Positions 6,288 to 57,177 of a stretch of 64,000 nt of DNA are shown one piece after another (within the stretch, counting starts at the first letter, position 1; each line of letters begins with the position of its first letter). The DNA lies in assembly GCA_949130485.1 (NCBI GenBank), contig OX422186.1, positions 7,808,337 to 7,872,336 on the forward strand, written 5' to 3'. The position numbers and the translations under genes are program-made. Origin of the DNA: Agelas oroides (lineage: Eukaryota; Porifera; Demospongiae; Agelasida; Agelasidae). The notes under the pieces are model-generated. The model ran no database searches. It saw only the letters and a list, made by a program, of their open reading frames with translations, and had not been told where the DNA came from.

Positions 6288-6495
6288 CCGTGAACCATGA
6301 AATCAATTTGGTATGGCCTAACCTTTGAGCTAGTCTCGCAAGCCCGACCCACTTCCGCTAACCCTTCCCTTCTTTTGCGGAAGTGGGTCGGGCCTGCGAG
6401 ACTACCTTTGAGCATAGGCGCCAATAAGATAACTTTGTTGACACACTATGAACACACCTACTTAGGCCATACCAAATTGATTTTATGTTTCACGG
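6288..6495. mobile_element. palindromic element (CCGTGAA...TTCACGG), interrupted
   Basis: The arms 6288-6320 and 6463-6495 are inverted copies sharing AATCAATTTGGTATGGCCTA and ending CCGTGAA/TTCACGG. A half copy in the left-arm orientation lies at 6801-6847. A smaller palindrome (6331-6404) sits inside with its own exact 9-bp duplication, so it landed later. No coding capacity. Confidence 0.7.
6331..6404. mobile_element. 74-bp fold-back element with exact 9-bp TSD
   Basis: A near-perfect hairpin: TAGTCTCGCAAGCCCGACCC at the left end, its near complement (GGGTCGGGCCTGCGAGACTA) at the right. It is flanked by CCTTTGAGC at 6322-6330 and again at 6405-6413. It belongs to the TAGYCTCG palindrome family, with the Y=T terminus. 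Confidence 0.85.
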
Positions 6496-6638
6496 ATTGC
6501 TTAGGTCAGAAACATGACCCGGTAGGCAGGCAAAAAAATAAAAATAAAAATGACCGAACTTCTCATGAATTTAATTAGATACCACTCAGTCACACAAAAC
6601 TGCTCGCCATCCTCCATTCTTGCCACGTGGTGAGTACT

Positions 6639-6732
6639 TAGCCTTGTTTCCAGGCCTTCGCACGTTCGTCGCTTGCTGCACGATAATTTGTAGTGCTATC
6701 GACGAATGCGCGAAGGCCTGGGAACGAGGCTA
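6639..6732. mobile_element. 94-bp fold-back element, TSD 8/9
   Basis: Ends are TAGCCTTGTTTCCAGGCCTT and AAGGCCTGGGAACGAGGCTA, with further pairing inwards (CGCACGTTCGTCG against CGACGAATGCGCG). Flanks are GTGAGTACT and GAGAGTACT, matching at 8 of 9 positions. It lies about 180 bp upstream of the amine oxidase start. Confidence 0.8.
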
Positions 6733-6800
6733 GAGAGTACTGGATTACGTGTGCATATTAATTGCATTTTTACATTTTTTTTTTCAATTAAAAAAAAAAA

Positions 6801-6847
6801 GACCCGGCCGGATCCGTGAAACATAAGATCAATTTGGTATGGCCTTA
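6801..6847. repeat. half copy of the 6288-6495 palindrome
   Basis: It repeats GGATCCGTGAA followed by ATCAATTTGGTATGGCCTTA from the left arm of the element at 6288, without its partner arm. It falls in the proximal upstream region of the amine oxidase gene. Confidence 0.6.
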
Positions 6848-6910
6848 TCAACCTGGCGTTGCTAAAATCTAGTATCTGAATTTGCAGGTACAGAGCGTAC
6901 TGCGTCAGTA

Positions 6911-8416: not shown

Positions 8417-8589
8417 CTTATAACTAGTAATGGCATGTTCGTAGATATCTATGGTACTCATAACTGCTAGCTAGCCACACAGATGCAACAGTATATTGCA
8501 AACCAGCTCCCCTAACTTTAGTTAGCTGCAGACAGCTTTTACAAACTGGTAGTTTGTTATAGGGCTACCCTTTTATTTTTTGCCTTTGG

Positions 8590-8712
8590 GCTTGTTTTGC
8601 ATACTACCATTGTTTGACCCATTAGAGGAATGTACAAGACAGTCATTACAGCAAGGCATTATTTGCCATTGTTTGACCCATTACAGGAGCATGCAATTAG
8701 CCATTACAGCAC
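8590..8712. repeat. tandem repeat, left part, split by a LINE
   Basis: Units share CTTGTTTTGCAT.CTACCATT, GTTTGACCCATTA, GGAGCATGCAA or GTACAAGACAGT and ATTACAGCA. The same units continue at 10415-10640, so the retroelement at 8716-10390 lies between them. Confidence 0.7.
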
Positions 8713-8715
8713 TCC

Positions 8716-10390: not shown

Positions 10391-10414
10391 TATAGTCACA
10401 AAGATATATGGGAA

Positions 10415-10640
10415 ATGTATAAGGCTTGTTTTGCCATTGTTTCCCCCATTAGCTATACAAGAGTGTACAAGACAGTAATTACAACAGAGGTGATCGAGGC
10501 TTATTTTGCATTTTACCATCAATGACAAACAGTGTGCAAGACAGTAATTACAACAACGGTGCACAAAGCTTGTTTTAACTTTTGCTACCCATGGCAGGAG
10601 CGTACAAGACAGTAATTACAACAAAGGTGCATGATGACAT
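10415..10640. repeat. tandem repeat, right part
   Basis: About three units with GCTTGTTTT, GTACAAGACAGTAATTACAA and AAGGTGCA (or variants), 60-75 bp apart, matching the units at 8590-8712. The last unit runs into an inverted pair built on GTGCATGATGACAT. Confidence 0.7.
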
Positions 10641-10681
10641 ATTTGTATGTAAAATGACATCATCATGCACTCTTGTTATAC

Positions 10682-10797: not shown

Positions 10798-10799
10798 TT

Positions 10800-12685: not shown

Positions 12686-14152
12686 TGCATAATGACGTCA
12701 CGTACGAGGGCTGGGCCATGGGGTAAAACTTCGACGGCGTGCCATAGAGGATTTTGTACTCCACCTGATAAACACCGTTATAACTTGTGATCAATAGTAG
12801 CTGTTGCCGCTCTTTTTGCATGCATTGACCACAGCAGAATGTTCTATCCTCTGAATAGTTCCTATGCGCTTCGGACGTTGCGCAACGTTTCGGTTAGCAT
12901 GCAAAGCTACGCACGGCGCTCAAGAGTCTCAATTACAATCGCTACAACTGCCCTCACAGCTACCTCAAGTTAGAGTCAGCGTCAGAGATAACTTACTTCA
13001 CTTGAATAGATCCTGTAGAAGGCGCAGAACCCGCTGCCCCGCCCACATACATGCACACCTCCATGATTTAGCCATGGTTCAGCTAAATTGTACCATGTCA
13101 TATTTTAAATGGTAGTACGTACAGAACAACAGTTTAACACTGATCATGCAAGTTCAGTTGTGCTCCTTCTTGGACAGAAGCAGCTCTTCGAGGATTGTCT
13201 CTTGGGTCTGCACACTGCACAGTTCATGGTCGCCTTCGTCGGCATCTACAATTTATGGCCCTGTGAAAGTGTATGGAGGGGAAGAGGAAATGTGTAAATT
13301 GAACATCACTCATAGTGATGTGTTTCACCCATGCAATGCGTTCTTTTGCCCTGAACAACAACATGCAACAACAGACACTAACTTACCAGAAAGACCTTGA
13401 GATCTCTTGACCCTTTTGCCTCCGTCACGAATTCATATCAATCATGTGAAAATCTCCCAGGCCTTCTCCGTGCTGTAAATAATCAGAACGTTGACTTGGA
13501 GAAGGTCTGGGAACAATGCTACATGTGATACCCTGCTGCAAACCATCAGCTACACACAATCTCAGTAGCCTCATTCCCATGCACGCCCCACCTAGCTTTC
13601 TGTTGCTTACCACCATACAGCAAGCAACAGAAAGCCAGGTGGGGGCCTGAGAAAGAGGCTACACAGTCTACTTTCTGGTTACTCTCTCCAAGAAAAAGTT
13701 GCTTACCCACATGCAGTACAAGAGTATCCCAGCAGCTGCAACTAATTAAATCATACAAATTCAGCTGTAAATCTGGCTTATTCATGCCTTCCCACCCTCC
13801 CCATTGCACAAAACAGAAATATTGTACACAATATATACTAAAAGGTGGCTTACAAATAGTTTCAAGACAGAGGTCTTAGCCGTTTTCCAGAAATAGCATA
13901 TTGGTAGACATCATGAGCTGAACCATCGGCGGCTTTCCAGTCAATTAACGCCGCGCACTGCACGCAATACGGCCATCGGACTGTATGAATACACCAACTC
14001 TTCGGGTAGCAAATATTAGCGTATGGAGACGATCGCTCTTTCCGCGAAGCAAACTGAAGGATCTTCTCAACACGCGTTTGGAATTCCCCATACATTCTCT
14101 ATGGCCAGCTGCTGAAGTTTTACCCCAGCCCTCGTACGTGACGTCATTATGC
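12686..14152. mobile_element. 1.47-kb non-autonomous element nested in the larger palindrome
   Basis: The left end GCATAATGACGTCACGTACG is repeated exactly, inverted, at the right end. The inverted repeats extend for about 60 bp through GAGGGCTGG and GGGGTAAAACTTC to CCATAGAG. GTAACGCAAT lies close outside both ends and may be the target duplication. Internal ORFs are under 100 codons and show no transposase motif. Confidence 0.65.
13566..13661. mobile_element. 96-bp fold-back element
   Basis: A hairpin from TAGCCTCATTCCCATGCACG to GGGGGCCTGAGAAAGAGGCTA. Its inner stem pairs CACCTAGCTTTCTGTTGCTT with AAGCAACAGAAAGCCAGGTG. The flanks do not give a clear target duplication. A smaller hairpin with related sequence (CCCAGGCCTTCTCC ... 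GGAGAAGGTCTGGGA) lies just left, at 13458-13512. Confidence 0.7.
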
Positions 14153-14967: not shown

Positions 14968-15067
14968 TAGCCTCGAACCCAGGCTTTCCGTTCCGGATTT
15001 TGTCTCGCAACTTTGGAGAAAAAGCTGCGAGACAAAATCCGGAACGGAAAGCCTGGGTTCGAGGCTA
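14968..15067. mobile_element. 100-bp fold-back element with exact TSD and a preserved empty site
   Basis: A nearly perfect hairpin running from TAGCCTCGAACCCAGGCTTT to its complement. GCAATTTCT flanks it on both sides (14959-14967 and 15068-15076). It lies in the right arm of the large palindrome. The corresponding left-arm site (about 14288-14305, TAAGAAATTGCTGGAACTCT on this strand) has a single copy and no insert. Confidence 0.9.
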
Positions 15068-15839: not shown

Positions 15840-17600
15840 CTAACACAAAATCAATGATTGTGCTGTCTACAAAGTATAAAAGTCCTGCTGGAATGCAATA
15901 GGTTCACCAACTTGCACGTCTGTTTGGCAAGTTCACAGCCACAATGGATTCAACAATAATCGAACCCCTTCTTGGAGGTATATTGCTGTAGTTCAGCAAT
16001 TCTGTCAATTTGGGGATTTTCACATTTCTTAGATGTGGGGTTCTGCTCTACCACCAATGTACAGGACAGTTACTTCCTGAAATAATGAAATAAAACAATA
16101 ACTGCCATTTAATTGTAGAAAAGGTATTTGTAATGAGGAGACAATTACCAAAGTTCGCTGTCTGTAACTATTAGTACTGAATATAATATTTGGTGCAGTA
16201 AGCCTATAAAGGAGTGATGATTGTGTAGTCAATATAGCATTCAAGGTATAGTATTGCCTCTTATGGAATGTACCTGCCACAACATTTCAGCATACCCCCA
16301 TCTCTATTTTGTGCTAGCTACATGTAAGCGGAACTTGAAAACTTGGGGAGCATTAATAGTATCAGGTGGACACAAGACAGGCAGGACCAACTAAATTCAG
16401 AAGGCTCATCCTCGAGTGGGCAGCATAGTGTCCTGCAAGAGCACATGATGATGTCATTATTGCCTCCTCCCTCCACAATAAAAATGATGTCATCATGTGC
16501 TCGTGTCCTGTCAACCTTTCATTTCTTGTATCTTTGTATTTACTGCATGGTCAACTAGCTATGCATTAACTTAGAAGAATTTGTGTTAAAACATCTCCAA
16601 TTCATGACTGCTATCTGTATGGACCTCCTTTCTGAGCATTCCAGTTTCCACGGTAATGTGTCGAGTGTGGAAGGAAGTTCCATCACGAGCATCAAATCAA
16701 AACATTATCTTGAATGAGTTTTCAAACACTTACTGCAATTGCATGGGGCTTATGTGACCTCCAGTTTGAGATGATACGATGGTGCCCACAACATTGACAC
16801 ACCAGTGTCTACTATTTGCTGTTGGCCGGGTCACGCACCTCTTCACATCCACCTGATGTCATCCACTTTTGCAACAATACTATTAGTTTTCACTCACTTC
16901 CAGACAGAAACGGAAGCAGGTGGAAGTTATTTCATTGAATGTCTAGAGAGAGACATTTCTTTGTCTACTGTGAAACTGGGGTACGCTACCCTCTGATGTT
17001 AATCCTGGCTCAGTTTTAAAACTTTCCATAAAATGATGCACTCGACATAGCCAAATTGATAAGCAGCAGCATGAACACTGCACAAGGTGCCCATGGTGCT
17101 ATAAATAATGAAGTAGTAGGTGTGTGTGCCAGAAGCATGCGTGCAGGGACGAGAAACTAATATTGCTTTCCTGGTCTTAATGCAAAGAACATCTAAACTA
17201 GGGTAGGCCTGGTCTCCTGGTGCTCACTTCAACTTTCTGTTTGTAATATGGAACATCACCTACTGCAAGCGACGGAAAGCTGGGTGGGGCCTGGGAACGA
17301 GGCTACACTGAGCACGTGTAGTTTGCAAGTGGAGTAGCATTTAGACTATAGCCTCATACCCAGGCCGCGTATAGCTGAAGTCATTCTGTAACTTGATTGG
17401 TCAACTGCTAGTCCTATAGCTAACTCACCTAGACACTAGGTAGTTGGAACACCAGCTGGCGAACACTAGAGCTGCAATTTGGAACACTAGCTGCAATTTA
17501 AAATACTAGCTGGCAACTTGGAACACTAGCCACTACAACAAAACTGCATATAGTACATCTTTACATACAGTGCATGTTTACGTAGCCTCATCCCCAGGCT
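15840..17600. other. no gene supported; small repeats
   Basis: I found no credible exon. The 16439-16502 hairpin is listed separately. Near 17455-17530 the phrase GAACACTAGCTGGCAA recurs imperfectly. Single termini of the TAGCCTCG family occur at 17285-17310 and 17348-17368. Confidence 0.5.
16439..16502. repeat. 64-bp hairpin
   Basis: GAGCACATGATGATGTCATT at the left pairs with AATGATGTCATCATGTGCTC at the right around a 24-nt pyrimidine-rich loop. It resembles the GTGCATGATGACAT inverted pair at 10625-10670 in sequence. Confidence 0.8.
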
Positions 17601-17601
17601 G

Positions 17602-17931
17602 CTAATGTTTACGTAGGGTTGATGGTAGCATTTTGGCTGGTGTCTTCTTAACATCCTTCTTTTGTGTTGTGCCTGAGTCTTCACATTCCTCTGACACAGA
17701 GAGTAGTTGCAGCATATCGGTAGCTTGGTCCTCAAACTGCTCTAGTGCAGCTAGTAGCACCGAGTCATGGGTAGCTTCATTCAAAACTCCCGCACTAGAG
17801 GAGGCGGCCACAGAAACTTGTGGTTGTTCAGCTCTTCTCACTTCATGTGGACTACTATTAGGTTCACCAAAAAACTCCCCATAGACTTTGTCCCCACAGA
17901 GGTCACATAGTATCAAGTTGTAAGGCACCAT
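17602..17931 (-). CDS. uncertain small ORF with a CxxC motif
   Basis: A minus-strand ORF of 109 residues starting MVPYNLILCDLCGDK. The pair of cysteines (CDLC) could bind zinc but has no visible partner pair. A helical acidic stretch follows (LLAALEQFEDQATDMLQLL), then a basic tail. A TAA lies in frame just before the ATG, so this is either a complete small gene or a first coding exon ending at the donor CTAC/GTAAAC (17612). No family recognised. The end overlaps a single TAGCCTCATCCCCAGGC terminus, which weakens the case for the last residues. Confidence 0.35.
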   Translation of the reverse strand: MVPYNLILCDLCGDKVYGEFFGEPNSSPHEVRRAEQPQVSVAASSSAGVLNEATHDSVLLAALEQFEDQATDMLQLLSVSEECEDSGTTQKKDVKKTPAKMLPSTLRKH

Positions 17932-20326: not shown

Positions 20327-23300
20327 ATGTCCAAGCCGGAGGTTTGTCGTTACTTTATCCGCGGTCGGTGTACGTATGGGGACAGATGCAGATACTATCA
20401 TCCTGGTGTTGGAAAGCAAAGTGACTATAGTAAGAAGCGAACCATGGGGGGTGTGGTCTCGTTCCAGATCGCATCCGGTGTTATTGTTGTATGTACAGGT
20501 CAGGGCTAGCTAGCTAGAGGCAGAGGACTAGTGATGTCTTATAATCAACACGTGATCTTGATTGTCAAGTTAATTACCGCACGTGAGAGTCTGGCCCGCG
20601 AGACTAACAAGGGGTAATCACTTACAGGTCGCCTGTAGAAGTGTTTGTGACCGTAAAAAGTGTGCTTGATCGCTTGATTTTCCCTTCTCAGGCTCTTGAT
20701 CACTTGATTTTCAAGGGTCAAAGGTGCAGCCGCACATTCTCGACTGTTGATTTTTAGCAGTTTGGAGGTCACCTTGATCCCTTGATCGGCCCCCAAAAGG
20801 TCTTTGATCGCTTGATTCAATTTTGATCCCGGTCGCAAACGCTTTTACTCGAGACATATAAGTGACTACCCCTTGTCCTACATTCCATTGCTTCAACAAT
20901 GATTTCTGGGTATCAGAAGCTTCTAGCGTGCTGGGTTCACTCAGGTTGGGGGGTACTTTTAACCATACTGAAGCTGTCTATTAGGTCGAGATCAATGACT
21001 GCCATTCATCTAGCTCTCAACAGCCACATAAATGCCGCTTGGAGGTCACAAAGGCATGCAATGTTATTTCTGACTGGCGAGACACTTTCAGCATCATGAA
21101 AACCCCCCTAAACCCATCGTGATCTTTGCCGCACAGCGTTTCAAATTGTTGTATTGATGGTTTTTAGTCCTTGGAATGTTCATTAATGCATAGCCCACGT
21201 GACTGTGTCGGACCTCCTCTGGGTCCAATTGTGTACCCACCCTGTGAATGAAAATCTAATCCAGTTTGCCAACAAGCATGAAAAGTGGTGCATGTACTGT
21301 AAAACCATGGATATTGTAAATCAAGTGATCAAGAGCTTCGTAAGAGGATGACCAAGTGATCTTAACAGTATTTCAAAGGATAAAATGGTAGCCGTGTAGC
21401 CGTGCCTCCAATCTCTTGATTTAGGCCGTTCAAGGTCCTTGATTGGTTCTCAAAAAGGATGATTGCTTGGGGTCCATTATGATCCCATGCAGTCACAAAC
21501 ACTTCTACAGAAGACACAAGTGACTACCTCAGTGACTGGGGAAAATGTATGATTGTGTAAAACGGAAGTTAGAGCAACAGATGCGGACAAAGTGAAACAC
21601 ATACAGTGGGAGATGAGGCAGGAGAATTAATTTACTTAAAGTGGGGCTCCAAGTAAGGACTGTATTGACTGCCACGCAGTACACAGTTACCAGCCTTGAG
21701 ACGTCAGTATATGTAACAATGAGATCAAATACTGCTTGCTCAGGCTTGCCCCATGATGAAGAATCTGCCTTCTGGTATTCTTCTCCTTCCCAATTGTAGG
21801 ACAGAGACACCAAGGAGACCCACAGGTGGATGTTGGCAGAGGGTGGGACCAAAGGGTAGGCTGCTGCTCTCTAGGAACTAGGGCTGAGATTCTGCAGTCA
21901 AGTACTGTTACCTTCATAGTTGACTATTAGGCAAATTAGTTCCTTCCATTGGTGACTACTGCGTTTTCCCACGTTCTTGGAACTTCCGGTTGTAACAGCA
22001 TCAATCGTGTGAGCCAATCAGAGGGCAGAATTCAAAAATTCATCAATTTGATTGGATGGCACAGTTCTCACTCTTGCAACCGGATGTTGCAAAAAACATA
22101 GTAGGCCATACATGTACTTCATATGTTGCTCAGCATGGCTGGCCTAAATTTTGCAGATCTACTCAAAATTGATAATTGTCTACTACGCACATGTGAATCT
22201 GCACACTGAACTTGTCTCATCTTGTGTGTGGATGATTATAACCATACTCACCAGAAGATTACACAAAAGCCCAAGATTGCCAACCGTAGAATAGATGGGA
22301 TGATCATTTTAGTCGAAGAACTGTTAGAGACAGCTAATAGTACATTTTCCAGTGAGACTGTCGCTAAGATCATGATCATGTGACCATTATTATCATTTTT
22401 AAGCCGACCTACTGACCCTCCTTGAAAAGTCATCTGGCCCAAGCAACATAAAATTATGGTATGGCCCCAGAGTTGTTGTGGGCTGAAATTCTATTGGTAT
22501 GACAGTAGCTAGTTTTTGCATGCACAAAGACGAGTATTTCATTAGTAGCAGTCTTGACTGGACCTCTTTATGCATCAGCAATGGAGTGTGTAACTTGCAT
22601 GGTGTCCAAGCAAAACACACGACTGCACTTCACTAATGGACTTTGTGCATCACTCTACTTAATGAGGTACTGTTATGCCTACGGCGCATATATTGTCTGA
22701 ATGTCTCATGCTCCATTGCCAAATCGTCTCCCACTGACAGTGTGTAATATATAATGTTACATGTACACACTCCATTTCAGGTACATCAAGCGTCCAGTGG
22801 GAGATGGTTAGGCAACGGAGCATGTCTGTTATTCCTTCACTTGCAACAAACCACTGTAGCATGATCAGTATAGCACGATGTGAACTAGGTTACAATGAAT
22901 GTGGGATAACTAACTCAGCCTCATTCCCAGTCCATGTAGAGGGAAGAAAGTGGCCTGGTATGCACTTTTTTTCCTTTCATATGGCCTGGGTACAAGGCTA
23001 TAACTAACTATATTCTTGCTTCTTAACAGGGAGGAAACCGCTATCAGTACCTAGACAATGACAGATGGCAGAGGGACAACTCAGGTGGATACCGTGGCAA
23101 CTATGACCATCGGAGTCGGAATTATGGTTACCAGAACCCCAGACAAGGTTCTGGGTATCGACAGCAGCCACAATGGAATGATCAGTATAATAAGAGGGGG
23201 CAGCAGTATGCAGGATCATGGTCCCAAAACTGGAGATCCAGTTCCAGAAATCCTAATGTGAGTTCTGGATTCCTGCAGAACTGGAGAACGAGTACAGTAT

Positions 23301-25872
23301 CATCTGTCGTGCTCAGTGGGTAGCCTCGTTCCCAGGCCGTTCCCGCCTCCAGTTTTTGATCGCTTCCAGTATAAAAACGGAGGGGGAAGGCCTGGGAGAA
23401 AGAGTCATGTGCGTGACGTCAGGTAGACGTGAGGGTAGATGTGAGGGGGGCGGTGCCCGATCGTTGTAATTCACAAACTTTGCGTTGATCAGCCTCGAGT
23501 CTACCATACAACGAGCTGCATTGACGCTGTCTTTCGAATGTTACAGTCTCAAGTTCTTGGACAAGATATTACAAGAAGGACCTCGAGATTCTTCGTTGGG
23601 CACTGCCCCCCTCACGTCTACCCTCACGTCTACCTGACGTCACGCATGTGACTCTTTCTCCCAGGCCTCCCCCCTCCGTTTTTATACTGGAAGTGATCAA
23701 AAACTGGAGGCGGGAACGGCCTGGGAACGAGGCTACTCAGTGGGTAACTATGTGTAACATCTAGGCCTGACTTTTTCAGGGAGATGCGGTTCATTGATTG
23801 TTAGAGATGGTTGTATCAACTTTACAAGCAGTGGGCATGAAGCACAATCATAGCAGCTTTGACCTCCAGCAGGGTGATGGTAGGCACCATGGCTCTTTCA
23901 GCGGTGGAAGCAGCCACCCACAAGCCTCTACTGATCCAGTTACCCCAAGGGAGATTATGTAAGTAGGTATACAGTGGGTGGTATACAGTGGAAACACGCT
24001 TAGTGGACACCCCTCAATACTGGACATCTACTATATGTAATGGACACTTTTGAACTGTCTTCCATTCACTTCAATACTTAAGCAACTCTTGAATAGCGGA
24101 CACCCCGCTACTCCTTATAACGGACACATTTTGCATCCCGATTGTACACGAACAATACTTAACTACCCTGATTTAGTAGACACTCCTCAACCTTTTCCAC
24201 AAGATTGTCCACCATCACTGCTAGACTAGTGCTGTTACTTGTAGTAGCTCTTTGATCATACCAGCTGTTCTTGTGCACTCATATTCAAGAAAGTTGTTTT
24301 GTTGCACAATGCCATAAACTGGTCTCTGACTTCAATCTCTATCTCTCTTGTGGCAGGAATGCAATCCAGCAAGACATGAACGAGTGGAGAAGCAGCTCAG
24401 CATGGCCTCTCTCTTGCTATGCTTACAAGAAGGAGGGTGAATGTCTTCCCAACTTCACAGAGCTGTCACCAGAGGAACTCAGGTGGGAGGCCTACCAAGC
24501 CAACAAAGCTGGCAACCCTGACACCTACATGCAGTCTGTACGCAACCTCATTGAGACTCAGATGAAAGTGTGGCAGCAATACAGCAATATTACTGATGAA
24601 GAGGTCTCACAAATGGTATACGAGCTAGTAATTTTAATGTAACTAGTAACCACCGTTTTCTGCAATGCTATGTTTTGTGGAAGCCATCTTTGTTGAACAG
24701 CACACACAGAGTGGCTACCAGGTGTGAGAGACTGAAGGAATAATGGTTGTCTGGGTGTCTGTAACCACTGGACTGGACTACTAGACTCTAATGTCAACCC
24801 CCAAAAAATATTTACCACAACTCACTTGCCTATGGGAGTTGTGTGCTGTACTACATCAGCATAGAAAGCTGCATTGGGCCATTCTGTTTTGTGGTAGAAT
24901 CAAAGTTCTAGCACCAGAAATGTAAATGTGGCGTGGGACTAGCTTCATTCTCATGCTCATTATGCAAAAAGAAGGATATCTGTTACCAACTTGTTTGGGG
25001 AAAAAACTTCACTGAAATTTCGACTGAATGCCCCCGTCGTCATGAGAACTGGAGCATTCAGTCGAAACGTTGGCAAAGTTTTTTTTCCCCCAAAAGTTGG
25101 TCCTTCTGCTTCTTTCATGCAGGAGCTAACTGAGAAGCCACTGAAAAGCTGGGAAGGAGCTTGAGAATGAGGCTAGCATGGGACATGTGTGACTCTGTTT
25201 GGACACTGGCTGATTCACTAGTGTATATAGGCGTCTCAGCACACTTCACAACAGTTAAAGCTCAGCCATCTAGTCCAATAGTCCAGTAGTCCAGTCCAGT
25301 GATTACAGACATCCTGGTTGCCTGGTCAGTGGTCAGAGTACTGGCAGCTCAAGCCAGGGATCCAGCCTGGGTTTGGTTCCCGGCAACTTTTCACTTCTTC
25401 ATACCTGTTGGTCAAATAGGTTGTACTTTTGCACCTGCAGTTATCATCTGGAACTACTTCCTTATTTGGAAGTCACAACTCCGGATTGAGCTCACTGTTT
25501 GGTCCTAGTGAAAGTAATGGCCCTAGCAACACTTCCATATTTGGAAGTCCAGGACCCCTTTTTGGCACAAAGTCACAGGAGTCTGCGTTTGGTAGTGGAT
25601 TTCAGTTGCTGTTCGGCAGTTCTCAGAGTCCAATGGGAGGAGGACTGTTTCCACAAAGCAGCAGTGACAATCAAACCACAGGACAACCCCCAGCTGCTTC
25701 AGCACAAACTGGAAGTGCTATTACTAGTGGGGAGAACTCTGCTAGCTCTGTAACAGCCTCTCAAAGTACAGACTACCAACTGACCGAAGAGGAACTGCAA
25801 GCGTTCAAGTCTGATAAATTTGTGTTGGGTCAAATACCTGAACACCCTCCTCCAGAAGAGCTTTGTGAATAA
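20327..25872 (+). CDS. NUP42: NUP42 (NUPL2-type) FG nucleoporin with CCCH zinc finger
   Basis: Exons: 20327-20429; tentative 22781-22806; 23030-23257; about 23873-23958; 24357-24615; 25441-25872. With the tentative 26-nt exon all phases agree and the product is about 377 residues, near the roughly 420 of vertebrate NUP42. The N-terminus has a C-x7-C-x5-C-x3-H zinc finger (CRYFIRGRCTYGDRCRYYH). A Gly/Tyr/Arg/Gln-rich stretch follows. Exon 5 carries the family helical segment with LSPEELRWEAY. The last exon has FG repeats (SLFG, IFGSPG, PLFG, LLFGSS) and ends with the diagnostic LTEEELQAFKSDKFVLGQIP. Family knowledge: NUP42 sits on the cytoplasmic face of the nuclear pore and helps GLE1 and the DEAD-box helicase DDX19 release exported mRNA. 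Introns hold at least five inverted-repeat elements and a tRNA-like sequence. The first donor, the 26-nt exon and the start of exon 4 are the uncertain points. Confidence 0.88.
20607..20876. mobile_element. inverted-repeat element in NUP42 intron 1
   Basis: Ends pair as AAGGGGTAATCACTTA against TAAGTGACTACCCCTT. Just inside, GAAGTGTTTGTGACCG pairs loosely with CGGTCGCAAACGCTTTT. The interior repeats CTTGATCGCTTGATT five times in variants. A diverged relative lies at about 21290-21535 (CAAGTGATCAAGAGC, CTTGATTGGTTC, ACAAACACTTCTACAG). Confidence 0.65.
22916..23000. mobile_element. 85-bp fold-back element with exact 9-bp TSD
   Basis: Termini CAGCCTCATTCCCAGTCCAT and GGCCTGGGTACAAGGCTA. It is flanked exactly by TAACTAACT (22907-22915 and 23001-23009). 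It sits about 30 bp upstream of a NUP42 exon, so the right-hand duplication lies close to the acceptor tract. Confidence 0.85.
23321..23735. mobile_element. 415-bp near-perfect palindrome with exact 9-bp TSD
   Basis: It begins TAGCCTCGTTCCCAGGCCGT and ends with its complement. The arms pair over about 150 bp each, including CCGCCTCCAGTTTTTGATC, GGGAGAAAGAGTCA and a stretch with GTGACGTCAGGTAGACGTGA. The central loop is about 90 nt. CTCAGTGGG flanks both sides (23312-23320, 23736-23744). It lies in the NUP42 intron after the 23030-23257 exon. It is the longest family member here. Confidence 0.92.
23985..24190. repeat. diverged repeat built on GGACACC units
   Basis: TAGTGGACACCCCTCAAT, AATGGACACTTTT, AGCGGACACCCC, AACGGACACATTT and TAGTAGACACTCCTC recur at irregular spacing, alternating with TACT or TACTTAA words. 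Probably an old transposon fragment within a NUP42 intron. Confidence 0.5.
24940..25175. mobile_element. 236-bp fold-back element, TSD 8/9, carrying hammerhead-like sequence
   Basis: Ends TAGCTTCATTCTCATGCTC and GAGCTTGAGAATGAGGCTA. Flanks GCGTGGGAC and GCATGGGAC match at 8 of 9 positions. The interior holds two inverted copies of the GCATTCAGTCGAAA motif also found at 15414-15443, and CTGAGAAGCCACTGAAA as after the 15361-15471 element. It lies in the last NUP42 intron. Confidence 0.8.
25317..25391 (+). other. tRNA-like sequence, probably a SINE head or tRNA relic
   Basis: GTTGCC at the start pairs with GGCAAC at the end. TGGTCAGTGGTCAGAGTACT resembles a D-arm/A box, CTGGC/GCCAG can form an anticodon stem, and GGGTTTGGTTCCC resembles a T-arm/B box. 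A TTTT follows directly. The base before the putative anticodon is G not U, the T-loop lacks TTCG, and acceptor and T stems overlap. It is therefore not a standard functional tRNA. It lies in the last NUP42 intron. Confidence 0.4.
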
Positions 25873-26159
25873 TAATATAGTAGTTCTGTATTTGTTGTTG
25901 TTGTCACTTCTTGCTACACTACAAACTATTACACTTTCCATCAAAGTTTATTTGGCTTCCAGGTGCACAATGCCAATTTAGAAGTTGTGCATTTTAGATA
26001 TATGATTCTGTTGCTTGTTGCATGGGATCAGCCAGGTGTGAGAACTAACTTGTCTTTAGCCAACTCCTTGTCAGTATTCACATCTCCTATAGGAGGTAGC
26101 CTCATTCCCAGGCCCCATCTGAAGAGCCATGGTATTGGCCAAAATGTGTCATGCAGGTG

Positions 26160-26210
26160 TAGCCTCATTCCCTCCCCGCTAAGGAGGGGGAGAGCCTGGG
26201 AACGAGGCTA
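26160..26210. mobile_element. 51-bp minimal fold-back
   Basis: TAGCCTCATTCCCTCCCCGC and GGGGGAGAGCCTGGGAACGAGGCTA form a short hairpin. A solo left terminus lies at 26096-26115. No clear target duplication. Confidence 0.65.
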
Positions 26211-26491: not shown

Positions 26492-26546
26492 TTGCCTTGT
26501 TTCCAGGCTCTCCCCTGTGTCCCGGGGGAGCCTGGAAACAAGGCCA
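26492..26546. mobile_element. 55-bp minimal fold-back, TSD 8/9
   Basis: GCCTTGTTTCCAGGCTCTCC pairs with GGGGAGCCTGGAAACAAGGC around a short core. Flanks GTATCACTC and GTGTCACTC agree at 8 of 9 positions. Confidence 0.75.
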
Positions 26547-42311: not shown

Positions 42312-42663
42312 TAGTCTTGTCCCCAGATCCCACCCTCTTGCAAGGAAAAGCCGTCTGGTGAACCAAGTTGAATTTCTTGGGCTAGTGCATGCTCTTGTGA
42401 CAGTGTAATTTAGCAACACTCAAACGTTAGCAACGTTGACACTCAAAACATTTTGTGCCAAACCCGCTCAAAAAAGGTACAGATATTCAAGTAGAGATAA
42501 AAAAAATGTACTGTTGTAAGGGAAGTGCTATGTAATAATCAACAATCTCGCAATCTCATTGGTCCTTACCACTTTTCAGGAATAGGCCTAAGAAATTCAA
42601 CTTGGTTTACCAGACCGTTTCTCACCAGGAGGCGAGCAGGCGAGCAGGCTGGGCACGAGACTA
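42312..42663. mobile_element. 352-bp fold-back element, TSD 7/9
   Basis: Ends TAGTCTTGTCCCCAGATCCC and CAGGCTGGGCACGAGACTA. Inner arms share CAAGTTGAATTTCTT complemented at 42589-42603. Flanks CAACTTCAC and TGACTTCAC agree at 7 of 9 positions. TAGTCT-type terminus. Confidence 0.75.
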
Positions 42664-43782
42664 TGACTTCACTGAAATTTAGTACAAGAGTACAATTGTC
42701 CGGGTCACAGGAAATGTGAGAATGCTGACACAATAATATCATGCATTCATTACTGGCTTTCAGAAAATCATATGTTTTGACCTTGTGGTACCACTTAGAC
42801 ATAAACTTTGATATGGGGTGATATTTTGGTATTCAGTGACCTGAGCCCTAGTTCATGAACAATCAACGAACCACATCTCCCTTATAAAAGCCTAGATGTT
42901 ATGCAAAGTCACCCACTGCGCAGGACGCGTTTCGCACAGTTGAACCTCTCAAATGTGGACAGTGTACGAGGCATCTGTATTTCAGAGACTTCAGGTAGAC
43001 TGGTGACTCCACTTCAAAACATTTCATTATGCTTTTAGAAAATTCCGTGGATTTAACCTTTTGTTCCTTCCATTATGCTCCAATTATCTTTCAACTTAGT
43101 TTCAACATGTTCGTCAAACAAAAGCCTTAGATTTACTTGTGGTCTTATAAGGTCCATACCTTTGGGGCCAGCTACACAAGAGCTGTGGACTGCCATCACA
43201 TGCTTTAATTAGAAAATCAAGCACATGTGAATTAAGCTGGAAATATTTGCTGGCATAATAGGCTCAGGCCTACTGTTGATCCCAATTTGGCTATGCTTTC
43301 TGAGTTGTCCCCTTCTTGTTTCCATACTCTCTCCTTTCGATGAGACAAGACTAGAAGGAGGCCAGGCAGGTGTTCATAACTGGCTGTATTTTTCCCAGAA
43401 AGGTCCCTAAAGGCAGGTGTCCCCAACTCAGGAGTGTGGTTGATTATTATCTGGTGTGAAGAAAGAAACTTTCCAGGGAGGCATGGGAACTCCCAGGAGT
43501 GACTTAGCTCGTAAATAATGTTGGGAGTGAAATAAACAGTAAAACCTCCAAAGACAAACAGAAAGTCCTTTAACAGTAAACATACATGTAGTGATGGCAG
43601 TTAGGCTAAAAAGGATACACATGCAGGTGTTCTCAGGTGCCTCTCTAGCTTTTTGGTCACACAATTTACATTATACCACATTACATCACTTCCTAAGTAT
43701 TTCATTGGATGAACAGCAGGCCATATTACTGGGGCAAGCCTGAGTGATATTATACTCCTGTTATGTAAATCGTAAAATAATA

Positions 43783-44163
43783 CCATATAGCGGGAAATTT
43801 TTGCTGGTCCAAATTTTTGCGAAAATCCCTTTTTCCCTCCAGAAGAAATTTTCGCGGTTTTAATTTTCGCGTTTAGCGTGAGCTATTGACCACGCCCCTT
43901 TATTGTCACTGGGCTAACAGAGGACGAAAGATGTCCATGGGAGAGGGTAGGACGTCGTCTGTCGGTTTGAAATAGCGTTACAGTGCCATCGTCAGATTGA
44001 GCGAGACTAGCGCACAAAACGCACGTGTGAAAATTTCCACGAGTTCAAAAGTACATGCAAAAGTTCATGTGTCAAAATTTTCGCGGTTCTTATTTTCGCG
44101 TTTTGGTCATGGGTTGCGAAAATTGTGAAAATTTGGACCTCGCGAAAATTTCCCGCTATACGG
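43783..44163. mobile_element. 381-bp MITE with TA target duplication
   Basis: Ends CCATATAGCGGGAAATTTTT and its near complement, AAATTTCCCGCTATACGG, flanked by TA on both sides. The sub-terminal regions are rich in TTTTCGCG words. A TA duplication and this length suit a Tc1/mariner-type MITE. A second member lies at 54193-54711. Confidence 0.85.
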
Positions 44164-44200
44164 TAGTTTGCACAAAACTTGCATGGTTTACATAATAGTT

Positions 44201-44336: not shown

Positions 44337-45396
44337 CACTTTTTTAGATCATGGCTAGCACTGTTGTAAACTCCAGCATATTTTCGAAGCAAATACCGCC
44401 ATCACAAGCGATGGAAAGCTGTGGACACGAAGAGCCGTCGGGCTAGCTACCCTGCAGAGCGAACCGAGCGAACGGAACACACCTCGACAATCGAACTATA
44501 ACTCACCTGTGTTCTGAAAGTACGGGTGCAGGTTACGATATACCTTGGTGAAGAAAGGTCACGCCGAGAACAACGAACGGCTGTTCAAAGCGTTGTCTTC
44601 AGTCGAAGAACACAGCCAGTTTCAAAGACAGCGCTGCTCACGGAGGTGGTGTACGGATAATAACCGGACTTCCGCATACGCTCGAATGGAAAAACAATTT
44701 TTTTGATTTACTGAAAACAAAAATTCGCTTATTTACACAAAATATACTTGTATTTACGCACATCAAAATATTTGTTTATATATAATCTATGTACATACTA
44801 CTGACAATGTAAGGCCAAAACAATGGCCTCATGCTCTGAGCAATAAATTACAGGTGTTCTATGAGAATTTACAAGTATTCTATGGGATTTAGAACACCTG
44901 CTGTTGACCAATCATATTGAAGCATTTACTACAACCATGATCTAAAGAATAGTTTGCACAAAATTTCAGCATCTAACTTGCAGAGGGCAAACGCGCAATC
45001 GAGAGGCAGCTGTACAGCGGACCTTTCACTTTGAGAGAACCAACTTCTTTTATCTTTCGGCACTAATGGTAAGGACTCGATGTAGCACTTACTAGCCTGT
45101 ATTTTGCACACAGCTGCACTAAAAACAGACCCCAACTCTTGCCCTCCAGAACTGAAGCCACGCCCCATGAAAACCATCTATACTACCTATACTCGGAGTA
45201 TAAACACGATCTTCTCCTCATATAGGTAGTATATCCAATACTTACGCGAACAGAGCCTGGGAACAAGGCTATAGACTACTTAACTCTACCTCTTTGCTGG
45301 TTGTATGCTTCATTGGCTATCCACTACCTATCATATCGACATGGGGGGTTCTTCGAGGTGTAGATGCAAAGCTTGGGCCTCAGTGTTTGATAGCTT

Positions 45397-46305
45397 GAAC
45401 ACAGTGAGTCCACACATACCAACCGACATTAGTACCATAGCTACTAACATTAGCCTTGTTCCTTGTATGAGATATGAGGCTACCCCAACATTCCAGTGAA
45501 CACAGTGAGTCCACACATACCAACCGACATTAGTACCATAGCTACTAACATTAGCCTTGTTCTTTGTACGAGATATGAGGCTACCCCAACATTCCAGTGA
45601 ACACAGTGAGTCCACACATACCAACCGACATTAGTACCATAGCTACTAACATTAGCCTTGTTCCTTGTACGAGATATGAGGCTACCCCAACATTCCAGTG
45701 AACACAGTGAGTCCACACATACCAACTGACATTAGTACCATAGCTACTAACATTAGCCTTGTTCCTTGTACGAGATATGAGGCTACCCCAACATTCCAGT
45801 GAACACAGTGAGTCCACACATACCAACCGACATTAGTACCATAGCTACTAACATTAGCCTTGTTCCTTGTACGAGATATGAGGCTACCCCAACATTCCAG
45901 TGAACACAGTGAGTCCATACATACCAACCGACATTAGTACCATAGCTACTAATATTAGCCTTGTTCCTTGTACGAGATATGAGGCTACCCCAACATTCCA
46001 GTGAACACAGTGAGTCCATACATACCAACCGACATTAGTACCATAGCTACTAACATTAGCCTTGTTCCTTGTACGAGATATGAGGCTACCCCAACATTCC
46101 AGTGAACACAGTGAGTCCACACATACCAACCGACATTAGTACCATAGCTACTAATATTAGCCTTGTTCCTTGTACGAGATATGAGGCTACCCTAACATTC
46201 CAGTGAACACAGTGAGTCCACACATACCAACCGACATTAGTACCATAGCTACTAACATTAGCCTTGTTCCTTGTACGAGATATGAGGCTACACCAACATT
46301 CCAGT
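45397..46305. repeat. 101-bp minisatellite, nine copies
   Basis: Nine near-identical copies of a 101-bp unit starting GAACACAGTGAGTCCACACA. Each unit holds TAGCCTTGTTCC and GAGATATGAGGCTA about 10 bp apart, which look like the two ends of a minimal palindrome of the TAGCCTCG family. Minus-strand frames of 81 codons recur every 101 bp and are artefacts. Confidence 0.95.
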
Positions 46306-46944: not shown

Positions 46945-49900
46945 CATACATGAGCACCACTGTACCCAGGTCAATTGCAGAATGCGAAAATGGAGAAAAG
47001 GCGTGTGCATAAAGTGGGATAGACAAATGATAGACAACCATTTTTATTATAAGAAAAGGACTCAAGATTCTTCATTGTGCAGAGTCTATTTTCTGTCTGA
47101 CATTCCACGTGTGACCAGATCTCCCAGGCTCCAGTCTTTGATGGTTTGCAGTATGAGGGGAAGTCCTGGGAGAGCTGCTCATAGGCTGTGGTGTGTCAGT
47201 ATGAGGGGAAGTCCTGGGAGAGCTGCTCATAGGCTGTGGTGTGTCAGTATAAGGGGAAGTCCTGGGAGAGCTGCTCATAGGCTGTAGTGTGTCAGGTGGG
47301 TAGATACACAAAAAGCAGCGTCTACCCAGATCTCCATATTGACTACAAGCAATCAAAGACTGAGCAGGCCTGGGAATGAGACTGAGCAGGCCTGGGAATG
47401 AGACTGAGCAGGCCTGGAAATGAGACTGAGCAGGCCTGGGAATGAGAGCTGCATATGTGATGAGATTGAACATGTGTATAGTTGTAGAGATAGTTTGTAG
47501 TTGTACAAGTAGTTCTGTTGTTTGGATGTTGTGTGCATACCACAAATACAATTCATGTTGTACCTAGGTGCAGTACTGTAACCACCACTATAGTTTGGGA
47601 GTGTTGTGCTGTGTACAAGGGAACTGTTACTACAGTACAAATGGGTGAGAGAGCCTTGGTATGCGGTTAATTCAAAGTGGTCTGATAACCAACCAGCCAG
47701 TGAAGTGTGAAGAAGACTTGCATTGAAGAATGTCGCTGTATATGTCTAGTACAAAAGTAGCCATGGAATGTAAGAAAATAAAACCCACACAATTTCAGTT
47801 TAATGAGTCAGCCAGTGAATTGCAAGAAGGCTTGAGTTACCAGACTCAATGGCGGAGGCTGGAATGTGCTTTCTGTAACAATGAGCAGGGATACATAGCA
47901 GGGTTTCATACAGGATTTTGAGTTGGGGGGGGGGGGGGGGGGGGAACAGGATGGTAGCAGGATGATAGTATCGTGCGAAAGCACGCTTACGTGTCTGTGC
48001 CTACTAGGGGGGTCTGGGGGCATGCCCTGCCAGGAAAATTTAGAATTTAGATCCTCTTAGATTGCAATCTGGGACAAACTCTCCAAACATTTTGATGACA
48101 CATACTTATGTCCAGTAACATGTAAAATTAAATAGCTAATATTGATGGCACCACAATAATAACCATACTCAATTTCAAGATTTCTTGGGGGGGGGGGGGG
48201 GGGGGGAATTGTGGCTGGAGGGGGAAAATTCCAGCCCCCCCCTCTGTATGAAACCCTGTATAGCAGTGAAATGTGCTAGATAGAACTGGATGGCACCTTG
48301 TTTGTAGTAGTCACATGACTGTAGTGTAGTGTAACCTAACATTCTATATTTGGAAGAGATGCTGTCTCACTCCAAGGCCTCCTCCCTCCTCCTCTGTAGG
48401 CCATGAAAAACTGGACAGAACAAGGCTATTTAGTAATAGTGGTTAATCTCTCCTGAGGGTGGTTGTTGTTAGGTAACAAGTATTATTTTTTGGTCAACTC
48501 AAGTGGATGGGAAGATTCCTGGCTAGCACAGGTGAGCATACATTTGCCACAAGAAGGATGTTCAAATCATATTTCCCTCCCTTTGTGTACACACTACAAA
48601 CTAAGGCTTCCTAATTAAAGGTTAAAATTGTAATACAGATCAGCAGTGTTACATTCAGCAAGGATGTGCCTATTCAAACCAATGGTCAAACCAGCCATGG
48701 CTTCCACCCCCATACAGACTTGATGAGCCTGCTGCAGAAACAGCACCGAGCCATTGTGTCCAGTTGTTCAGGGAAATGGTTTCCCACCTTGAGGCTGAGG
48801 CAGTGGAGGTCAGTGGAAGTGTATTTCGGTAGCCATGGTGATAACCTTCTGGTCAGCAATCTTGTCTCCACAGATGTGCAAGCAAGAGCAGTGATAGATC
48901 ACCTTGCTGAAAGTTGCAGAAAATTGCCTAGCAACCAAGTTGTTTTAGGTTAACCATATATGTGTGGGGGCCTACTGTACTACTTTGATCCAAGTACAGC
49001 AGATTGCAGAGGTCTTGCAACATGCAAGCTAGTCTCGTGTCCAGGCTCCACCCAAACTGATAACTAATTTACGTGCCAAAAAAGTGCTGTGTCATCATGC
49101 TGAAGTAGCCAAGGATTTCCGGTGTTACAGATTGTGTTTTCTGCAATGTGATTGGCGGTTGGAAAATTCTCTGCAGAAAGCAATCAACATTAATGAAGCC
49201 CAAGGGATTGGTTGAACATCACCAGACCCTCTCCTCTCAGGTGGGGTCTGGGCACAAGACTACATTCAGTGGAACACCACAATTAATTTACTGTGTTTGA
49301 ACCAAAGCTGAGGCAGAAAATAATGAGATTCATATGTAGCAAATTAATTGTGGCTTTCTACCGTTCAGCTTGCCCTTTGCAAGACTTGTGCTAATCTGCT
49401 GTAACATGGATTGCTTTTGGATAGTGCCTTCAGCACCAAAATTGAGTCGACGAGAGGAGTGTTTTCTAAGCCCATTTGCACAAAGGAGAAGAAAAATGGC
49501 CCATCCAGTGCCGACAGAGGTTTTCTATAGCCAAGCACGAAAATAAAGTCAGCACGATTCACTAATCCTACCACCATAAAGATATTTTGAGATGAAATAG
49601 AGGAAAGTAAAAGCTGGCAGTTGCCAGGGACTGAACCCAGGATCAACATAATTCACCAGTGCCTATACTGCATAACACGAAGCACACTGTGTAGTTATCT
49701 TCCTACCTTGAAGTCAAAAATTTCATGACAAATTCAGGATCAATTTTGTCTGTCTGTAGAAAGTTCAGGCTCTCAGTAGTTTCCTGAACTTGGCTCCCTC
49801 TCCTGCCAGAAACAGGTAGGTGTGCTAGTTTGTCATCCTGGGACTCAGGGATGTTGTGCAGAGGAAGCAGGGGACCAGTTTCATTTGTGACTCGTATCAT

Positions 49901-50009: not shown

Positions 50010-50012
<3 letters not shown>

Positions 50013-50046
<34 letters not shown>

Positions 50047-50740: not shown

Positions 50741-50755
50741 TTCCAAACTAGCTAA

Positions 50756-53268: not shown

Positions 53269-53370
53269 TAGTCTTGGGCCCGGATCCAAACCCAATCCCA
53301 GAGCGAATCGTTTTCAGTATTATTGTACTGGAAACAATACACAGGGTGGTGAGGTCTGGAGACAAGACTA
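53269..53370. mobile_element. 102-bp element with TAGTCT-type ends
   Basis: Ends TAGTCTTGGGCCCGGATCC and GTCTGGAGACAAGACTA. The flanks GCAATCAAA and TGCATCCAA match only partly. The internal pairing is weak, so it may be degenerate. Confidence 0.45.
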
Positions 53371-54192
53371 TGCATCCAACTTCTCACTCTAACAATGATC
53401 CTACAAGCAGTTCCTGAATGTCCTTACTAGCCCACGGTCTAAAGTTAAAGATAAATGCTTGCTCCATAAAAAGCAAGCTCTTGGAGTAGTCCTCAATATT
53501 AATACATTTTCCCCATTCACTTGCCTTGCATTATGGCAGCACATGTGTGAAGCACAGCAGTGGTGATGTCAAATGCTATCTATACATGCCTCTATTACTG
53601 GGATGATGTGTTAGCTCCCACATGCCTGCCACACTTATAAAAACAAATGCCTGGCTGTCTTAGAAAGTACAAGCCCTTGAGAGCAATTGGTGTGTTTAAA
53701 AACAAGATACAGGTGCGTTGGTTATGCCTTGTGGTTGCACTTCTGACCCGCACACAACAGCACATCTACAAGTAGTGGAGTAGACTGAGGTTACCACATT
53801 TCAAAAACCTATGCCCACTTTGATACTAAAGTCGGGTTGCACCTGGTACTGACATGGCAGTATGAATAATAGAATAATAGCAGGTGGAAGAGGCTCAGTG
53901 GAGATTGGTGACAATAATGGTATCAATAAAGAATTAACGAAGAGTACTCCCCACTTAAAGGATGTGTTGTTGGCATAATTAGCATAATCAATATACAATA
54001 ATTACTCTCAATTTTTGATTGATTAAGAAATTAGTTGACTGATTGTAACAGCCTTATACAATAACATAACAGCCGCTGAAAAGGTGATAGTCATTTCTAA
54101 ACATGCTACAGTAGTCCAAAACTCATGATAATCCAAAATCCCTTGCTAATCTGAATGGACTGTAGCTCAATAACTTGTACATATAATGTATA

Positions 54193-54711
54193 CCATATAG
54201 CGGGTATTTTTCACGGGGCAAATTTTTTTTTGCAGAACCACGATCTATTGTATTACAGAAAAAATTCGCGGGTTAAATTTTCGCGGAAGCGAATTCTCAA
54301 AATTAATTTATTGACATTCACCAAAGCGCGCACAAAGTAAGCTAGCTATAGTTTATACCAGAGATGCTCGCAATGGAGATATTTGTAAAGTTGTGCAGTA
54401 TTATGGTTATGGACGCACTCGTTAGCGGTATGTGGACTAGTATCGCTACCGGAAGTGGGCTGGCTCGCGCGAGACTAGGCGCACTGACAGCAGCAGGCTA
54501 AACCAAGAAAGAGAGTGGGCCCTTGGAGTTTGGTAACTGTCCCCGCGAGATGGCTATTGTAGCAGTGACGTGTTTCATGGACAGAACTGTCTGTAGAACT
54601 ACACGCACGTGGATACGAGTCATAAATTTTTTTGGGTTAATTTTTCGCAGATCCCACTCGACTGCGAAAAACGCGAAAATTATAGCCCTGCGAAAAATAC
54701 CCGCTATACGG
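54193..54711. mobile_element. 519-bp MITE with TA target duplication
   Basis: Ends CCATATAGCGGGTATTTTTC and its near complement, AAAAATACCCGCTATACGG, with TA on each side. The arms hold TTTTCGCG words and CAAATTTTTTTTTGCAG. It is a longer relative of 43783-44163, sharing the terminal 12 bp and the outward TAGTTT context. Confidence 0.85.
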
Positions 54712-55077
54712 TAGTTTACTGTAAATTTTTGAGCAATATGACTTCAGATCAAGTTGTGAAAAGAGCCGATGCTAACTGTTGATCAGAAGGTAGAACTGTT
54801 TGACCACATTGGAAAGTTGTCTTCGTTGTCATCACTTAGTCATTGAGCGATCAAGCGTGTTTTAGACCATTAACCAAAGGTTAAACGCACCTCATAGATT
54901 TGCTGGAAAGTCATTGCTCACATCTCTGTAGCCTTCTCATTCTATTTTGCAAAGTTGGGAAGGTCAGGGAACAAGGCCACACTAAATGGATGCTGGAGTG
55001 ATCCTGAGCAAGTTTGGTACGTCCATGTGCATTATGCTGAAAGACAGTAACTTTGTTGCACTGCAGCTACAGTTGTG

Positions 55078-55344
55078 TAGCCTCGTTCCCAGGCCACTCC
55101 CAGATTTTATCTCACAGCAGTGGAGAAAAATCGGGAGAAGGCCTGGTACCAATACTACATCACGGACCGGAAATGGTGGACTCGGTTAGTAGAAACCGAG
55201 TCCACTTTACGTACTATCCGAGTCCACCATTTCCGGTCCGTGACGTAGTATTGCTCCCAGGCCTTCTCCCAATTTTATCTCGCTCTCCCGATTTTTCTTC
55301 ACGGCTGCGAGATAAAATCTGGGAGTGGCCTGGGAACGAGGCTA
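55078..55344. mobile_element. 267-bp near-perfect palindrome with exact 9-bp TSD
   Basis: Starts TAGCCTCGTTCCCAGGCCAC and ends with its complement. The arms of about 130 bp pair through CCCAGATTTTATCTC, CGGGAGAAGGCCTGG and CGGAAATGGTGGACTCGG. ACAGTTGTG flanks both sides (55069-55077, 55345-55353). A diverged half copy lies at 57767-57890. Confidence 0.92.
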
Positions 55345-57087
55345 ACAGTTGTGCACAGCAAACTAAAGTAGCCTGTACATGTACTTGTTCAGTTACTATA
55401 GACCATGATACCTAGGCTAATCAATTTAGGGGTACACCCAGACACCCAAGATTAGTGGACATCAACGTTCACCAAGCCCAACAATTATTGTTTACAAGGA
55501 CAGACTAGTCTGAAGAAGAGCATGTCTAGTCCGTTTATTTACATACAACATGCAATTTATTTACATACAACATACACCTACATGATTAGCAGTGAACACA
55601 TGCAGCTTCACCTGAGTAGCATACCCAAACTCTAAAACCTGTTAAATTGGAAAACCCTGGTGTTTCTTTCTCACATGAGAGAGGTGCTTAATTTTGTACC
55701 TCAGGCTCAGAACAGCAAAAAGAGCAAAGGTGCTAGGCAAGTGACTTACCACGCATACCTAGCTCATGGGGGTCAACTATCATGTACACCCCAAGTGGTG
55801 CAACATGTGAAGCATTGTCTTTTCATTCTGCCGATTACATCATGCTCAGGCTCTCCCCAGTTTTAGTGCTTTGGCATGGGAGAGCCTGGGGATGAGGCGT
55901 GGAGCACAATCATATTTGCTTTCTCCTAACTAGAATGTGCATATTCCAGCTAGCCTTGCACTCTAGGCCTTAAGCCTAACTTTGGGCATAATGTTGACAG
56001 TAGTGTTAACATGCATACCAGGCTCTCTTTCTACTCCCTGGCAATGAAAGCCAGATATACTGGCTATGGAAGAGTACATATGAACGCTTGTGGCCACTCT
56101 CTCCTTGTAAAAAAAAAAAAAAAAAGCCAAGTTGTGAAGGTCTGGGTATGAGGCTTAACTTCCACCCACGACTGAAGCCCAACAACTGAAAAGAGGGAAA
56201 CACAGGTATGAGGGGGGAGGATGCATGTAAACTGACCTTGGCAGGAGAGAATAGCCACCACTCTACACCATTTCCTCTGAAAGCTAGGTTATGCAGCTAT
56301 TGATTGTGAGCAAATAGATCATTAAAAACATTAAGTTTAGTAACTATAGGATAAAAGGAGTAGATTGGCCATTAAAGTCTAACAGCCAATCATGAAAAAT
56401 GAGGCACAAAGGGAAGCTCCCTAGGGAACATAAAGAGGAACATAACTTGAGTTCCAAGAACAGACAAGTACAAAGGACATCTGTAAACAAAGGCCTTTTG
56501 TTGGCATGGTAGCTAAAACCTCACATTCTGAAGTCTTCCTCTGATATTGACAGCGACTCGTGGGTCACTTCAGTGATGAACATCACAGCACTCTCCTGTA
56601 AACAAACATCGCCATAGCAACATCATCTCTGTATACTACCTCAATATGCATAGTACATTGCATGCTATGCACACAATAATGGACAGCATATACTAAATCC
56701 CACCATACTATATCAGTATAGTGTATGGCATACTAAACCAATTTATCATCCTGCATACCACTTTGTTTAGTACACCGTATACTTTTTGATGCACTGTATA
56801 CCATTGCACTGCACACTATTGCATACTACTGCATATTGCACTACATACTAGTCAGTATATCACATTGCATACCACTCAGTATATTACACTGCATCTATTA
56901 CTCTACATACTATTTAGTGAAACACACTGCATACTACTGTTCCCCCTCCCCCCATTATCCACCGTAATGTCTTGGATATAAAGCTGCTAGGGAGCAGTAT
57001 ATACACACCTAAAATAATGGTGCTGCAAACCATAGCTCAAGAATGCATGAATGAAGCTCCGGAAAACCAAAGCGAAGCTCTAAGAAC

Positions 57088-57177
57088 TAGCCTCATACCC
57101 AGGCTCCTCCTCATGCCGAAAAGCGGGAAGAGGAGCCTGCGCTTTTCGGCATGGGGAGGAGCCTGGGTACGAGGCTA
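57088..57177. mobile_element. 90-bp fold-back with 8-9-bp TSD
   Basis: Ends TAGCCTCATACCCAGGCTCC and GGAGCCTGGGTACGAGGCTA. CTAAGAAC lies on both sides (57080-57087, 57178-57185), and the next base extends it to CTAAGAACT if the boundary is set one base in. The inner stem pairs CATGCCGAAAAGCG with CGCTTTTCGGCATG. Confidence 0.88.

Follow-up and report, generated by a model that had tools for sequence, protein, structure and literature searches.

A large clan of palindromic repeats with a shared ~17-bp terminus and 9-bp target-site duplications in the sponge Agelas oroides

Palindromes scattered through a 64,000-nucleotide stretch of the genome of the sponge Agelas oroides (G000:C4:7808337-7872336, hereafter the window) share an outer terminus of about 17 bp and carry 9-bp target-site duplications (TSDs). 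We read them, with reasonable confidence, as non-autonomous cut-and-paste transposons, comprising miniature inverted-repeat transposable elements (MITEs) and foldback elements, that form one clan defined by its terminus and its 9-bp TSD and are moved in trans by a transposase, most likely of the Mutator-like element (MULE) superfamily. The clan is real, very large and moderately diverged; its superfamily membership is unproven, with MULE the most likely assignment. Like MITEs, its members are short, end in terminal inverted repeats (TIRs), have a TSD of fixed length and occur in high copy, their non-coding status being judged by small size. They also have the long, self-folding inverted arms of variable length typical of foldback elements, and their 9-bp TSD falls within the MULE range of 8–10 bp, mostly 9 bp.

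Identical 9-bp flanks occur far more often than expected. The TSD sample was 264 kb, formed by joining the window to the adjoining 200 kb and excluding three tandem arrays; allowing up to 4 mismatches, it contained 165 left ends and 167 right ends, which gave 279 left/right pairs lying 30–1500 bp apart. Exactly matching 9-bp flanks bound 23 of these pairs, against about 0.001 expected, and 9 further pairs matched with 1 mismatch. Flanks identical over 6, 7, 8, 10, 11, 12 and 13 bp were found in 0, 0, 3, 2, 0, 0 and 0 of the 279. Swapping partners among the pairs left none with exact 9-bp flanks, and a swap under stricter end criteria likewise left 0 of 124, though one tandem array supplied about half of that set. 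The 32 TSD-supported pairs are not 32 separate elements, since some are nested and two share one right end; they cover 2.64% of the 264 kb. In 357 kb, and with no right end required, 61 of 199 termini had an exact repeat of their adjoining 9-mer within 1.5 kb; control 9-mers taken 10 and 20 bp further out recurred for 6 and 5 of 199 (both ends of one element count separately among the 199).

A filled site and its uninterrupted relative tie these duplications to insertion. Within a copy of a 415-bp family lies a 112-bp member (154566-154677 of the joined 264 kb), and the filled site reads GGCACCGCC, element, GGCACCGCC; the uninterrupted relative at 23321-23735 of the window has GGCACCGCC once. 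The interrupted host copy also carries an unrelated insertion and differs near the site by one 12-bp tandem unit. Clan members insert into one another: a 565-bp element sits within a 1043-bp element in the 264 kb, with exact 9-bp flanks on both, and at C6:5165266-5166086 a split copy of the 415-bp family encloses a full copy, as judged from match coordinates only. The original prediction that palindromes with a shared terminus and 9-bp duplications are real insertions is thus borne out, both by the 23 exact flanks and by the related empty site.

The terminus is abundant throughout the genome and comes in two types. Across 259 Mb in 141 contigs, the exact terminus TAGYCTCGTNCCCAGRC occurs 26,906 times (13,233 forward and 13,673 reverse), while the same pattern read backwards occurs 0 times. 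Perfect terminus pairs spanning 34–64 bp number 837 genome-wide, 692 CC-type and 145 TC-type, against 0 for controls. C-type ends read TAGCCTCG..CCAGGC and T-type ends TAGTCTCG..CCAGAC; terminus positions 4 and 16 are linked (92/18/1/26, Fisher p 3e-15, with 137 of 154 termini in the 2x2 table). End types agree within the 32 TSD-supported pairs, of which 29 are C-C, 3 are T-T and 0 are mixed. In its own right the terminus forms an imperfect palindrome, GYCT...AGRC, and an inverted GYCTGG lies within 130 bp inside 110 of 197 arms, 64 of these being the full opposite end, against 24 of 197 in a reversed-arm control. By eye, a stretch resembling TCACGTGA/TGACGTCA also recurs within the arms of long elements. 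A terminus scan of viral contigs returned 4 single matches.

The interiors are best read as belonging to many MITE and foldback subfamilies, a good number of which draw on a small stock of arm modules, because the tested elements are high-copy at full length and many arms reuse modules. The genome copy search covered two window elements, and both proved to be high-copy repeated sequences. For the 415-bp element at 23321, 40 of 2188 first-look candidates were scored and yielded 39 other full-length copies (exact or within 1–2 bases) at 91–97% identity; for the 100-bp element at 14968, 40 scored of 702 likewise yielded 39 others at 89–98%. The earlier contention that hypervariable stems set these palindromes apart from ordinary MITEs therefore fails for both elements tested. 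Inner arms share at least 15 matching bases with a different element at 124 of 197 termini and at least 25 bases at 50 of 197, against 19 and 3 of 197 for the outer flanks; for the other 73 of 197 termini, no inner-arm partner of at least 15 bases was found in the sample. One recurring motif, TCGCTTGCAGTA, occurs 91 times at up to 2 mismatches, a looseness at which a few tens are estimated by chance. Of these occurrences, 47 follow a terminus by no more than 110 bp; a distance of exactly 33 or 39 bp, with recurring half-stems on either side, is frequent. The left and right half-stems around the motif form a mean of 4.29 pairs against 3.55 when shuffled, and at least 8 pairs in 13 of 91 cases against 3.7%. 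Stem covariation was considered as a mark of selected structure and dropped, the signal being weak and complementarity beyond shared descent likewise weak.

At the small end, the clan extends to near-minimal elements and remnants. Two 40-bp elements, at 95048-95087 and 115521-115560 of the joined 264 kb, have exact TSDs. Four remnants of 19–58 bp keep one end and little or none of the other within perfect 9-bp duplications: 24 bp at 259018 of the joined sequence, ending GAGGCTT; 19 bp at L056:541-559; a 58-bp single arm at L001:1401-1458; and 22 bp at 17583-17604 of the window, on the forward strand, comprising the left end plus TGCTA within ATGTTTACG. Controls in the 17–60 bp range gave 1 and 0 matches of 199. 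The remnants suggest excision followed by aborted repair. A 53-bp element used with its flanks as a genome query found 7 places, itself included, that share the flanks and represent a duplicated host segment. At 33 further places the match reached little beyond the element, at 77–90% identity bar one 29-bp piece at 100%, and 2 of these are tandem arrays. As 34 of its 53 bases are shared ends, the query leaves the movement of such short elements undecided. One idea, which we regard as doubtful, is that near-minimal elements with ends 40–60 bp apart are still moved, or rebuilt time and again, by the transposase. DNA that short does not loop in the ordinary way; the ends would then have to synapse in trans, or the enzyme to work on an extruded hairpin. 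On this view foldbacks of 565 bp, twin ends of 40 bp and remnants of 19 bp within intact 9-bp duplications would form one continuum.

The genome encodes several candidate transposase lineages. Domain matches, all lower bounds, number at least 119 for PF10551 (MULE), at least 44 for PF20700, at least 23 for PF12762 (Merlin) and at least 70 for FLYWCH (E up to 0.01). The 12 transposase loci examined comprised 10 from MULEs, read with 1.5-kb flanks and in several cases closely similar to one another, one Phantom-like locus and one Merlin locus. The sole MULE element here with both ends read is a ZSWIM-like transposon of about 4.95 kb (L043:1732-6000, continuing in L050 to about base 682), with TIR GGGATTCGC and a 9-bp repeat, TATGTAAAC, that abuts the left end and lies one base from the right. 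Its first ~370 bp match 9 other places at 98–100%, so it has probably been active recently; by eye, a CXXC-like zinc-finger frame lies near its 3' end. A perfect upstream terminus made MULE family A (L043, L050) a candidate partner, which we rejected when copy comparison showed a MULE inserted into a T-type MITE. L033-L036 have a terminus downstream of the domain, but in the wrong orientation. One 453-aa frame at C1:12995068-12995880 is matched by both FLYWCH and MULE domains and is the best remaining candidate.

The other lineages read have different ends. Merlin L057:93-1490 (1398 bp, one of 23 Merlin places read) has TIR ACGAAGTCCGGAAGCC and a perfect 8-bp TSD, AGCGCGCT; its inverted ends are identical over at least 25 bp, and it contains a 279-aa open frame. 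The PF20700 elements read form two groups, represented by two copies each, with left ends TTAAGGTGGCGGG and TTAACGTAGCACGG; both start at TTAA, and neither left end is a clan terminus with a 9-bp TSD. The L053 and L054 copies of PF20700 are identical across the 1063 bp compared. Upstream of this TTAA-type gene, at L053:698-836 and at the same place in L054 (reverse strand), are five terminus-like motifs whose orientation alternates; old MITE insertions and binding sites are candidate readings. No DNA transposase was recognised in the list of open reading frames of at least 230 aa in the 264 kb, the Pfam scan having covered six window frames only.

Several results weigh against this account of a MULE-mobilised clan. 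The linkage of bases 4 and 16 may reflect merely two subfamilies, and with full opposite ends set aside the inverted GYCTGG is found in 46 of 197 arms against 24 of 197 in the control, a moderate excess. The original prediction called for an autonomous element with the same ends and a transposase; we looked for one and did not find it at the 12 loci or in the lineages with ends read. An outward-facing left clan end precedes the domain at 0 of the 12, and a right clan end follows it at 1 (L031), where it is part of a separate 62-bp pair. A MULE, perhaps Phantom-like, is our best guess at the mobiliser, by duplication length and analogy, because the MULE is the sole lineage with a 9-bp duplication among those read. 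Another DDE superfamily, whether Merlin, the PF20700 group, hAT or an undescribed one, is possible though distinctly less probable: no MULE copy at the 12 loci is linked to clan ends, and Merlin and PF20700 proteins are both present in the genome, but the Merlin element read differs in TIR and has an 8-bp duplication, both PF20700 groups start at TTAA at the left ends read, and hAT transposons make 8-bp target duplications, against 9 bp in the clan.

Two further explanations concern what the ends do. The original prediction held that one transposase recognises the outer ~17 bp and mobilises almost any hairpin bearing it. Its first half fits, as one end-recognising system with many interiors; the variety of interiors and the 40-bp elements with exact TSDs speak for the model as a whole. 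That each stem arises de novo is unlikely, however: interiors are common to large subfamilies, many arms come from recurring modules, and half-stems pair so little above shuffled ones that frequent de novo stems are unnecessary. It is highly improbable that the terminus is a non-mobile regulatory or recombination motif conserved in inverted pairs; the five alternating motifs upstream of the transposase gene in L053 and the presence of the terminus in tandem arrays would suit such a motif, but the 9-bp duplications and the pair of empty and filled sites contradict it.

The account we prefer, trans-mobilisation of non-autonomous elements, suggests a mechanism. A transposase supplied in trans would bind the palindromic terminus, with GYCTGG repeated in inverted form inside some arms, excise the element and insert it at a target cut with a 9-bp stagger. 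Where repair after excision broke off, elements would become progressively shorter until little beyond one end remained, and this shortening, together with recombination between arm modules, could produce the apparent hypervariability. The enzyme would most likely belong to the MULE superfamily, perhaps to its FLYWCH-containing Phantom branch.

Within the window, elements without an assigned strand range from 55 to 415 bp. Re-reading the ten flanks first reported upheld exact TSDs at five positions: the 74-bp palindrome at 6331..6404 (CCTTTGAGC; its inner terminus, TAGTCTCGCAAGCCCGACC, deviates after 9 bases), the 100-bp element at 14968..15067 (GCAATTTCT), an 85-bp element at 22916..23000 (TAACTAACT), the 415-bp foldback element at 23321..23735 (CTCAGTGGG) and a nested 267-bp palindrome at 55078..55344 (ACAGTTGTG). 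A sixth, the 90-bp element at 57088..57177, had been called exact; its abutting repeat is CTAAGAAC, 8 bp, or CTAAGAACT, 9 bp, if the first T of TAG is shared. The near matches stood as described, with one mismatch at 6639..6732 (94 bp), 24940..25175 (236 bp) and 26492..26546 (55 bp), and two at 42312..42663, a 352-bp T-type element that aligns over its full length, at 75.9% identity, to a 322-bp element at C4:7974960-7975281. Automatic pairing of each left end with the next right end, allowing up to 2 mismatches in either, gave 12 pairs in the window; those at 13566-13661, 26097-26210 and 49030-49262 are without matching flanks. On the reverse strand, a 195-bp stretch with one recognisable terminus (2325..2519) has the exact 9-mer CTAGGAAGT on both sides; this could be chance, as controls give 1–2 of 199 in that distance range.

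The end motif has also seeded a satellite. An array of ~21-bp units derived from the terminus (TAGCCTCATTCCCAGACTCCC) occupies about C4:8061282-8062990 (252946-254653 of the joined 264 kb). Tandem arrays at 45396-46305 (101 bp x 9) and 47357-47447 (22 bp x 4) of the window have units with terminus-like sequence, and match coordinates place short clan elements in tandem at C21:6077700-6078087 (~65-bp period) and C20:398790-399021 (~85-bp). Other inverted-repeat families (TACCATATAGCGGG... and ...CTGGACTGGACTACTAGACT), apparently unrelated, lie at 43781-44165, 54191-54713 and 24753-25314 of the window.

The clan, whose exact ends number at least 26,906 in 259 Mb, is a major shaper of this genome and a dense natural record of non-autonomous transposons shrinking, recombining and retaining just the end required by the enzyme. 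Portions of the end sequence had no match in the literature, which is weak evidence of absence given that no transposon database was searched. Publications on sponges (including Amphimedon), foldback elements and MITEs yielded no description of the clan, a weak negative as few subscription journals were covered. The comparison first drawn with Mutator-like and fold-back transposons holds in both the 9-bp TSD and the foldback form. Tm1 of root-knot nematodes belongs to a Phantom-type Mutator/Foldback MULE clan and is described as having MITE-like non-autonomous copies, 9-bp TSDs and composite foldback ends that vary in length (PMC3169594). This likeness is one of description, and Tm1, unlike the sponge clan, has an identified FLYWCH-MULE element, Tm1-A; 39 M. 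incognita copies are named for it, against the far higher 26,906 exact termini here (PMC3169594). Foldback-type MULEs such as FARE of Arabidopsis, with a MULE transposase, share the foldback form, again by description and as cited in that paper (PMC3169594). Muta1, a MULE of Aedes aegypti, is presented as having an imperfect palindromic terminal motif, 8–9-bp TSDs and derivatives with common ends and heterogeneous interiors, ordinary for MULEs; the clan resembles it in all three respects (PMC5225508). Muta1 TIRs carry subterminal 12-bp tandem repeats, whereas some clan arms carry a hairpin and an inverted inner half-site (PMC5225508). As far as these accounts go, Tm1 combines variable foldback ends with 9-bp TSDs and Muta1 derivatives have heterogeneous interiors, and the general pattern of the sponge clan is therefore already known from these two systems (PMC3169594, PMC5225508).

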